Notes under the pieces: model-generated
The model's input: the letters and a program-made list of their open reading frames with translations, nothing else
Databases searched by the model: none
Told to the model about the DNA's origin: nothing
Part shown: one piece after another, positions 10,410-13,904 of the stretch
Numbering within the stretch: position 1 is the stretch's first letter
Layout: each line of letters starts with the position of its first letter
Assembly: GCA_937925845.1 (NCBI GenBank)
Contig: CALAML010000045.1
Span: 65,616-129,615, forward strand
Length of the DNA stretch: 64,000 nucleotides
DNA from: an uncultured Acidimicrobiales bacterium
Lineage (GTDB): Bacteria; Actinomycetota; Acidimicrobiia; Acidimicrobiales; CALAML01
Direction: 5' to 3'
Translations under genes and position numbers: made by a program

Positions 10410-11861
10410 CTAGCAGGTGGTGTTGGGGTCCGAGGTGTTGTCGTTGACGCTCCACACCTTGACCGAGTTGACCCGGCCCTTGTCGGTGTTGATCTTGTCC
10501 TTCGACCGCCAAACGTTCGTGGCGTAGAGCCCAGGATCCTTGGGCACTCCGGGGCGGGCCCGGAGGTCTACGCCGGGCTGATAGCCATCGTCGGTGGCGT
10601 CTTTGGCCCCGGAGTTCATCTCCCGCGAGATGATGAGATAGTGAGGTACCTGCGGTACGAGGCGGGTATCACGCATTCGCTCCACACCGTCGACATACCA
10701 AACGAGACGGTTGCGCATCCACAGCAGCCCGATGGTGTGGCTGCCGGAACGGATGCCGGACCCAGCGTTGATCACCCCGCCGGGGGTATTGCCGCAAGCG
10801 TCGCCGGCGATCACCTTGCTCAGTAGCAGGTTCTCGGCGCCCGGAGACACTTCGTATTCGAAGAGGTCGATCTCCACCCCGTTGCCCGGGTCGGCGTCGT
10901 AGGTCTTGTTGAGCACGTTCGGGTCGGCCGGCATCATCCACGCGGAGAGTCGGAACCCGTTGCTGTCCATGTTGGAGAAGTCGACGTCGACCTCAATGAA
11001 GTGACCCGGACCCCACTTGCCGTCGTTGCCGCTGGGCGGACGCACCTCCACCTGAGTGCCGGCAGCGTTTGAGTACTCGCGGGACAGCGTCTGCACCCAT
11101 CCGGTGTAGAAGCGGTAGCGGTTGAACTCGGTGAACAAGTCGTTGTCCTGCACCGCATTGCGACTCGAGTCGGCTTGTTGCACCACCCGGCCGCCCATAA
11201 TCAGCTGGCCGCCCGCGGTTCGTGCGGTCTGGTCCTGGTGGGCGTTGTACCAGGCGCTCCACCGCTTGCCGTCCAGGCCGTCGTTGCCGACCTGGTGCAA
11301 GCCGTCGGACATGTCGTTTCGAATCCAGTTGTTGAGGTTGTTGAACTCGTCGGTGAAGACGGGGGAGTAGTTGAGGTTGGCGCCATCCTGGCCGGCGTTG
11401 ATGTTCGGCCCGTTGTTGGGACCGGGGCCGCCACCGCACTGCAGGCTGGCCCACGGGCCCCATTCGTACACACCGTTGGCATCTCGCAGAGCGATCTGGA
11501 ACTGGCGGTTGGCCAGCGACGTTCCGTTGTAGGTCTTCGACGGGGTGTTGATCGACGACCAGCCCTGCCACACCGCGCTGGCACCGGGCGCGGTGCGGGT
11601 GAAGACCTCGTAGCGCGTGGCCCGACTATCGCTGGTGGCCCCCCAATTGATAGTGACGTTGGCGGTGTCGGAACAATCGCGGCTGATCTCAAGCGGATCG
11701 GCGGTGCGGCACGACACGGCCAGAAGCAGTGCTATCGCCAATAGGCCCGACAGCGATCCCAATCGTGTCGCCGTGCTGCCTCGTCTCCGAGGTGCGGGTT
11801 GTGCTGGTTCTGGGCCGTTTCTTGGCACGGACTCACCGTCCGCCGTTGCCTGCATCGCCAT
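10410..11861 (-). CDS. GH16-like secreted lipoprotein glycosidase
   Basis: 483 aa from ATG 11861, which has GGAAGG eight bases upstream; the track start at 11921 is less likely. N-terminal signal with lipobox LLAVSC (Cys51) predicts a membrane-anchored lipoprotein. Residues ~55-135 resemble a fibronectin type III module. The C-terminal concanavalin-like domain begins near SPVFTDEFNNLNNW and has the GH16 catalytic signature as EIDLFEYE (two Glu of ExDxxE) plus the GSHTIGLLWMRNRLVWYVDG strand typical of laminarinase/agarase-type GH16. Likely hydrolyses a beta-glucan or galactan outside the cell; the substrate is not readable. It stands alone. Confidence 0.8.
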   Translation of the reverse strand: MAMQATADGESVPRNGPEPAQPAPRRRGSTATRLGSLSGLLAIALLLAVSCRTADPLEISRDCSDTANVTINWGATSDSRATRYEVFTRTAPGASAVWQGWSSINTPSKTYNGTSLANRQFQIALRDANGVYEWGPWASLQCGGGPGPNNGPNINAGQDGANLNYSPVFTDEFNNLNNWIRNDMSDGLHQVGNDGLDGKRWSAWYNAHQDQTARTAGGQLIMGGRVVQQADSSRNAVQDNDLFTEFNRYRFYTGWVQTLSREYSNAAGTQVEVRPPSGNDGKWGPGHFIEVDVDFSNMDSNGFRLSAWMMPADPNVLNKTYDADPGNGVEIDLFEYEVSPGAENLLLSKVIAGDACGNTPGGVINAGSGIRSGSHTIGLLWMRNRLVWYVDGVERMRDTRLVPQVPHYLIISREMNSGAKDATDDGYQPGVDLRARPGVPKDPGLYATNVWRSKDKINTDKGRVNSVKVWSVNDNTSDPNTTC

Positions 11862-12064
11862 TGGGAACCTTCCGTCGTAGTTGTGGGGCGGTGCCAGCTC
11901 ACACATCACTGGGCTAGCCATCCTTCAATGACACGAACCGGGCATTGGTTCCGGGGGACATCCGATTCGATCTTTTCGAGAAATGTTTCGATGCTGCACG
12001 GCGGCGGACCACAACCGCTCCGCTATGTTCTCTTCCATCGCTACCCGGGTCGAAGGAGTCTGAA

Positions 12065-12601
12065 ATGGCAGAAGTTGGCGGCCAGATCGCAACGGTTCAG
12101 CTCAAGAGCGCAACCGGAGCCGACGTCGAGCTTGGCGATTACCTCACCACCACCAGGGTGATCTCCTCGCCCCGCTACTACGGCTGACTGCCCTGTCGAG
12201 CGTTTCTTCTGCAGTTGCAGGAGCACATCGATGACATCAAAGCCATGGGCGCCGAACCACTCGGCATCTCGGTCGCGGCCGACTTCCAGGCCAAAGAGCT
12301 GATGGAAAAGTCGGTCGACTACGACCTGCTGCTCGACCCCGACCGGAACTTCAAAACCGCAGCGCTGGCCATTCCCAAGGTCAAGCTCTCCACCTATCTC
12401 ACCCCGGTCGCGGCCAAACGGTATTTGGCCGGACGCGGTCACAAGACCCGACAGGGCGCACCGACGGCCACTCCTTCCGAGCCACCCGGCGTGGCCATCA
12501 TCGACCCCGATCGAACCATCCGCTACCTGTACCAGGGCGAGACCGTCGGCGACTATCCGCCCGTCGCCGAAGTATTGGCCGCGCTCGAATCGTCGGCTTA
12601 G
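12065..12601 (+). CDS. Candidate selenoprotein: redoxin (AhpC/TSA-like) with in-frame UGA at the redox centre
   Basis: 178 aa if the TGA at 12185-12187 is read as selenocysteine (Sec41). Start is ATG 12065 with GAAGGAG eight bases upstream. The sequence before the TGA (GDYLTTTRVISSPRYYG) and after it (LPCRAFLLQLQEHIDDIKAMG) joins in one frame to give RYYG-U-LPCR, which matches the FYRGxWCPxCRxQL active site of AhpC/TSA-like redoxins with the first Cys replaced (UxxC). The rest of the thioredoxin fold is complete (LLDPDRNFKTAALAIPKV, GVAIIDPDRTIRYLYQG). A bacterial SECIS hairpin follows the TGA. Likely a thiol-dependent peroxidase or disulfide reductase. First gene of a three-gene operon. The alternative, a pseudogene with one stop, fits less well. 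Confidence 0.82.
12206..12223 (+). promoter_or_regulatory. Bacterial SECIS element for Sec41
   Basis: CTTCTGC-AGTT-GCAGGAG forms a 7-bp stem (one U-G pair) with the four-base loop AGUU. The loop starts 25 nt after the UGA and has G in its second position. Known bacterial SECIS rules ask for a loop 16-37 nt after UGA with a G in the first two loop positions, so all are met. Confidence 0.75.
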
Positions 12602-12614
12602 GAATCCCGCAGCT

Positions 12615-13904
12615 ATGGCTTCCAACGATCCTGAGCGGATGGCCCGCCCCTTGCCCGCCATTGACCTCGACGCAGCGCGAACCGGTGCCCACGATCGCTA
12701 CCGTGCGGCCCACCCGAACAGCGCCGCCGCCGATACCCGGGCCCGAGTGGTGTTGCCCGGCGGCAACACCCGGTCGGTCCTCGACTTCGATCCCTTCCCG
12801 TTCCGGGTCCACCGGGCCGAGGGGCCCTACCTGTTTGATATCGACAACCACCGCTACATCGACTTCTGCGGCAACTACACCGCCGGGCTGCTCGGCCACT
12901 CGCCCGACGACATCAAGAAGGCGGTCATCGACGGCCTCGACTCCGGCTGGTCCTTCGGCGCCACCCACGAACGAGAAGTTGAACTGGCCGAGCTGATCTG
13001 TGAGCGCTTCGTCTCGATCGATCAGGTTCGCTTCACCAACTCCGGCACCGAAGCCAACCTGATGGCGATCGGTACTGCACTGGCGGTCACCGGCAGAAAG
13101 ACGGTGGGCGTGTTCGAGCGCGGCTATCACGGCGGGGTGCTGGCATTCGGGCCGGACGCCGGCGGCCCTCACCACCAACTGAACGTGCCCTTCGATTTTC
13201 GGGTCGCCCCCTTCAACGACATCGACGCCATCGACGGCTTCATCACCGACGACATGGGTTGTGTTTTGGTGGAAGCGGTGCAGGGGTCAGGCGGCTGTCG
13301 ACCAGCCAGTACCGAGTTCCTTCAGGCGCTGCGCCAACGTTGCGACCAGACCGGCACCGTGTTGATCTTCGACGAAGTGATGACCAGTCGCCTCGCACCC
13401 GGTGGCGCCCAGGAACGCTTCGGCGTCACCCCCGATATGACCACCCTGGGCAAGTACCTCGGTGGCGGCATGACCTTCGGGGCCTTCGGTGGAGCCCGGC
13501 GGCTTATGGCCGCGTTCGATTCCGATGCCGGCGGCACCCTGACCCAGGCGGGCACGTTTAACAACAACGTGGTGTCGATGACCGCAGCGGTGGCGACCCT
13601 GCAAACCCAGCTCACTCCGGCCCGCCTCACCGATGTCAACGAGCGCGGCGATCGGCTCCGGGTTGGCCTCGACCAGGCGTTCGCCGCCTCCAGCCTACCG
13701 ATGTGGGCGAGCGGGATGGGCTCCATGGTATGTATCCACAGCAGCGACGACCGGCTCAGCGAACTGGCCTTTCACCACGCCCTCGCCGACGAGCTCTACT
13801 TCGCCCGTCGCGGCTTCATCGGCCTCTCCATGGCCATCACCGACGAACACGTCGACGCGCTGGTGGGTTCGTTGGCGTGCTTCGCTGAGAGCCTCACCGG
13901 CTGA
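12615..13904 (+). CDS. Class III PLP aminotransferase, glutamate-1-semialdehyde aminomutase-like
   Basis: 429 aa, ATG 12615 with AGGAA about ten bases upstream; a second ATG eight codons in is possible. Fold-type I class III features: LPGGNTRSV near the N-terminus as in GSA aminomutases, NSGTEANLMAI for the PLP phosphate, FDEVMTSRL with the pyridine-N Asp, and the Schiff-base Lys280 in TTLGKYLGGGMTFG. It is not the biosynthetic HemL context, since no haem genes are near. It lies 13 bp after the redoxin and overlaps the next gene by one base (TGATG), so it is the middle gene of the operon. Substrate unknown: an amino acid or amine transamination or amino shift is expected. Confidence 0.9.
   Translation: MASNDPERMARPLPAIDLDAARTGAHDRYRAAHPNSAAADTRARVVLPGGNTRSVLDFDPFPFRVHRAEGPYLFDIDNHRYIDFCGNYTAGLLGHSPDDIKKAVIDGLDSGWSFGATHEREVELAELICERFVSIDQVRFTNSGTEANLMAIGTALAVTGRKTVGVFERGYHGGVLAFGPDAGGPHHQLNVPFDFRVAPFNDIDAIDGFITDDMGCVLVEAVQGSGGCRPASTEFLQALRQRCDQTGTVLIFDEVMTSRLAPGGAQERFGVTPDMTTLGKYLGGGMTFGAFGGARRLMAAFDSDAGGTLTQAGTFNNNVVSMTAAVATLQTQLTPARLTDVNERGDRLRVGLDQAFAASSLPMWASGMGSMVCIHSSDDRLSELAFHHALADELYFARRGFIGLSMAITDEHVDALVGSLACFAESLTG

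Follow-up and report, generated by a model that had tools for sequence, protein, structure and literature searches.

How should an open frame be read that would encode a complete redoxin but for a single stop codon at the redox centre of its product? This question is raised by a locus in the 64,000-nucleotide stretch of an uncultured Acidimicrobiales bacterium analysed here (the window), where the two halves of an AhpC/TSA-like redoxin are separated by an in-frame TGA. Comparison with homologous sequences makes us highly confident that the two halves form one selenoprotein gene in which UGA codon 41 would be read as selenocysteine (Sec).

Gene structure and conservation of the UGA

The computed gene structure (Table 1) agrees with a preliminary description of this DNA, which had proposed a single open frame cut only by TGA at codon 41: the frame starts with ATG 12065-12067, ends with TAG 12599-12601 and has TGA 12185-12187 as its sole interruption. 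Read-through translation yields the redox centre RYYG-U-LPCR that had been predicted to form on joining the halves, and the ribosome binding site before the first half was also found, as was the close spacing to the next gene, which starts at 12615, 13 bp after the TAG. By profile search, the product belongs to the redoxin domain family PF00578 (43.2 bits against a gathering cut-off of 26). Elsewhere in the window, frames joined across a TGA and bearing UxxC, CxxU or UxC motifs were listed mechanically and judged by eye; none had a recognisable redox context.

Table 1. Coordinates of the redoxin gene and its elements in the window
Feature	Positions	Strand	Description and basis
Sec-containing AhpC/TSA-like redoxin gene (proposed)	12065..12601	+	178 aa with U41; UxxC motif is U41-L-P-C44
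Ribosome binding site AAGGAG	12053..12058	+	6 nt 5' of the ATG; from the sequence
Sec UGA codon, codon 41 (proposed)	12185..12187	+	TGA at this residue in 66 distinct segments from homologues; Cys homologues have TGC/TGT
Bacterial SECIS hairpin (predicted)	12206..12223	+	7-bp stem, loop AGUU 12213-12216; covariation, synonymous-recoding control, pair counts in 37 sequences, bSECIS rules

The surroundings of the gene add little. The downstream aminotransferase and SDR genes hold no functional clue to the redoxin, the 503-aa protein encoded upstream on the minus strand (10410-11921) matches nothing in Pfam at E 1e-5, and a conserved neighbourhood, looked for at two homologous loci (L049 and L064), was not seen.

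In 23 of the 248 genomes of the order a homologue has a single TGA, placed at the residue that corresponds to U41, and most strong matches at phylum level likewise carry one TGA. Pooling order and phylum gave 66 distinct Sec segments and nine Cys segments with TGC or TGT at this residue, two of the nine being a clear outgroup. Alignment of homologues had been named as a check, with decay of the downstream half in relatives as a result that would speak against a selenoprotein; codon 41 is aligned with TGA or a Cys codon, and in relatives sharing the TGA the downstream half is conserved and undecayed. The redoxin gene combines an in-frame UGA, coding conservation on both sides of it and UGA or Cys codons at the same residue in its homologues.

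The window protein itself sits on a long branch and is 28-38% identical to its closest relatives; a same-family search returned the window's own genome only. Scanning 84,980 genomes for a DNA pattern retrieved 44 stretches: seven are true homologues, of which five come from records with Acidimicrobiales or Acidimicrobiia in the title, and 37 are chance matches with no homologous sequence downstream of the TGA. TGA-bearing homologues were also observed in MAGs whose record titles name Acidobacteria and Actinomyces (L073 and L059), where mistaken taxon labels or gene transfer may be in play. Two candidates from the order-set search, L044 and L045, were rejected as family members, being an ordinary peroxiredoxin and an unrelated protein. 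One further locus (L094, G272 C130:56122-57197) holds a tandem pair of Sec redoxin genes, each with its TGA in RHFG-U-LHC.

The hairpin downstream of the UGA

Folding of the mRNA with ViennaRNA bears out the hairpin that had been described at this site: the arms CUUCUGC (12206-12212) and GCAGGAG (12217-12223) pair into a 7-bp stem around the loop AGUU, which lies 25 nt past the UGA and has G at its second position. The 45 nt after the UGA have a minimum free energy (MFE) of -14.0 kcal/mol. These values lie within the rules for bacterial SECIS elements (bSECIS), which ask for an upper stem of 4-16 bp, a loop of 3-9 nt with G among its first two bases, a distance of 16-37 nt from the UGA and an MFE of at most -7.5 kcal/mol (PMC13188914). 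Taken by itself, however, the window's hairpin is not decisive, because synonymous recodings often give a comparable stem: the same 7-bp stem arose at the same place in 768 of 20,000 recodings of the window (3.8%) and a qualifying stem anywhere in range in 682 of 5,000 (about 14%), while the folding z-score is only -1.05. We have accordingly rejected the single hairpin as proof of a SECIS.

Compared across relatives, the hairpin becomes decisive at the level of sequence. It is kept at the same position and with the loop AGUU in 37 sequences, the window included, with a mean unbroken stem of 6.05 bp versus 0.87 bp in synonymous recodings (maximum 1.68 in 500 trials). Among 13 sequences, again including the window, 96.7% of the stem cells are paired, two-sided stem changes number 21 versus 7.7 by shuffling, and the covariation score is 0.68 versus 0.26 by shuffling, a signal that is lost when the register is slid. 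Codon choice points the same way: wherever a Sec homologue has Gln-Leu at U+9/U+10 (37 of 37), the codons are CAG-TTG, TTG making up about 13% of the Leu codons in nine window genes, whereas in the two Cys homologues that share this Gln-Leu the codons are CAG-CTG and no more than one loop-adjacent stem pair is kept. Judged by these sequence comparisons, the hairpin is under RNA-level constraint.

Two subfamilies with the motifs RHxH-ULPC and RHAG-ULIC depart from this pattern in having shifted or weaker hairpins, the canonical form being absent in some RHxH-ULPC members. Eight loci with TGA at the same residue make up an RHxH/RHLA-ULPC subfamily, in several members of which the canonical bSECIS hairpin is weak or missing; this subfamily may use a different form of SECIS. 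One of the eight, with a weak canonical hairpin, is a second Sec redoxin paralogue in the window's own genome (L113, frame end 1756; G000 C134:8201-8752), with the motif RHIH-U-LPC.

Selenocysteine machinery and alternative readings

The window derives from a 5.1-Mb draft genome of 328 contigs (87% complete, 0.93% contamination). Its tRNA-Sec scores 66.5 bits, above the Rfam cut-off, and was confirmed by ARAGORN with the anticodon TCA; selB and selA, each above its cut-off, adjoin on one strand, and selD is present as well, all of them on contigs other than the redoxin's. The expectation that selA, selB, selC and selD should be found elsewhere in the genome thus held for all four, and the absence of selB and tRNA-Sec, which the preliminary description had named as refuting, is excluded. 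The selD of this genome (L017:1501-2421) is itself a selenoprotein gene, with an in-frame TGA in its active site HGAGUGCK.

Across the order, selA was detected in 22 of the 23 TGA-bearing genomes versus 131 of the 225 others (Fisher p = 1.9e-4), the sole exception, G169, being 83% complete. A few TGA-bearing genomes of the phylum set (G316, G415, G500) also lack selA, and in one genome of the order set with a Cys homologue (G107) selA was not found.

These observations bear on three other ways to read the locus. That a Cys redoxin became a pseudogene by a nonsense mutation, or seems to be one through a sequencing error, is very improbable: TGA is one base change from TGC and TGT, and the assembly behind the window is a draft, but dozens of diverged genomes share this TGA and retain the downstream half intact, which refutes this reading, and the hairpin is kept under RNA-level constraint. 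Two separate genes, the first stopping at the TGA and the second translated from an internal start such as TTG 12215, are scarcely credible; although a mechanical ORF 12215-12601 exists, its product alone would lack both the redox residue and the initial strands of what is predicted to be a single thioredoxin fold, the RYYG-U-LPC motif crosses the junction, and homologues run on in frame, including the uninterrupted Cys forms L021, L095 and L097.

We likewise give very little credence to a UGA reassigned to, or read through as, another amino acid such as Trp. The codon does lie in frame, but UGA terminates neighbouring genes at 13904 and 19977, Cys rather than Trp replaces it in homologues, and the tRNA-Sec of the genome has the anticodon TCA. 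On recurrence, the junction-crossing motif, the UGA stops and the Cys substitutions, all three readings were rejected in favour of a single Sec-containing redoxin gene.

Relation to known redoxins and predicted chemistry

The redoxin gene is new individually and previously unannotated, and it probably belongs to an unnamed clade. The high novelty implied by the preliminary description does not extend to the kind of selenoprotein, since Prx-like thiol:disulfide oxidoreductases with UxxC are long-known bacterial selenoproteins (PMC13188914 Table 1; PMC2398784, Prx-like 1). With PF00578 above its gathering score and a UxxC motif, the product falls into this broad class; it shares with the bacterial Prx-like family (PF00578, UxxC/UxxU) the domain, a single-Sec UxxC and an in-frame bacterial SECIS, a likeness at the level of domain and motif, and differs in the RYYG-U-[LAT]-P-C signature of its own clade.

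Among NCBIfam models, the SelL-related redox protein NF040769 matches best and over the whole length, yet the window protein reaches 65.4 bits and all relatives tested 53-115 bits, so that none is named by this model because the scores fall below its curated cut-off of 120. SelL itself has a UxxU diselenide motif in place of UxxC. Classical Sec peroxiredoxins (TxxU) share the AhpC/TSA fold and a peroxidatic position that starts helix 1, but the window redoxin has Tyr38 instead of Thr at U-3, in departure from the typical PxxxTxxC/U active site, and a CxxC-type partner cysteine. A Pfam search of the window redoxin gave no match up to E = 1 to PF13911 (AhpC-TSA_2), which we take to be the model defining the PRXL2/SelU family.

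An AlphaFold2 model built from a 22-row alignment (pLDDT 87.2, pTM 0.86) has a thioredoxin fold in which U41 is placed behind strand 30-35 and directly ahead of helix 42-53 (helix 1); the UxxC of the model starts helix 1 of a Prx-like2 fold, as is expected for PRXL2/SelU. Its top Foldseek match is the C44S/C47S form of human prostamide/prostaglandin F synthase (PDB 9us9, 9usa), at 21% identity, and the same protein came first in a PDB profile search (E 9.6e-16), its CxxC lying under the UxxC (profile lRhygClpCr versus LRRFGCVVCR). The human enzyme uses Cys; published work assigns it to the SelU family (SelU3, Prx-like2 domain; PMC3473315). Eukaryotic SelU has a eukaryotic-type SECIS instead of the bacterial-type hairpin seen here. 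The redoxin is best explained as peroxiredoxin-like with a thioredoxin fold, akin to PRXL2/SelU and SelL.

If the gene is read as proposed, SelB would bring Sec-tRNA to UGA codon 41, guided by the hairpin, and the ribosome would insert Sec and continue to the TAG; that Sec is actually inserted is what we infer from the conserved UGA, the hairpin and the machinery. The best reading of the product is a thiol/selenol oxidoreductase or peroxidase with Sec41-Cys44. From fold and motif, its most likely cycle would begin with attack on a peroxide, an endoperoxide or a disulfide by the selenolate of Sec41, the residue that opens helix 1; Cys44 would resolve Sec41 to an intramolecular selenenylsulfide, which thioredoxin or a similar donor may then reduce again.

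The direction of change between Sec and Cys forms is a related issue. A 2006 survey of the Prx-like family counted three Cys-to-Sec changes and zero Sec-to-Cys changes (PMC1794560). In our tree, Cys forms appear to branch from within the Sec forms, and the well-supported branches require no fewer than four changes of label; this pattern suggests that Sec has been replaced by Cys in Actinomycetota. Two congeners that are sister rows in the tree illustrate such a replacement together with the loss of hairpin and selA: G390 has the Sec form, the hairpin and selA, while G370 has the Cys form and neither of the others. This direction is a lead and not a result, because the sampling profile was rich in Sec forms. 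A wider picture, in which Sec is ancestral for the Actinomycetota UxxC redoxins, the rare Cys forms arose later by conversion and lost the SECIS, and RYYG-U-xPC proteins are a bacterial Sec counterpart of SelU/PRXL2 that reduces endoperoxides or lipid peroxides, is tentative and, taken as a whole, rather doubtful.

Gene callers using table 11 would split or truncate the redoxin gene, and its lineage is thinly covered in the selenoprotein literature surveyed. In 37 diverged sequences the AGUU SECIS stands at a constant distance and with an unchanging TTG, which provides a handle for finding further such genes, and the likeness to human prostamide/prostaglandin F synthase suggests an assayable activity for this group of redoxins.
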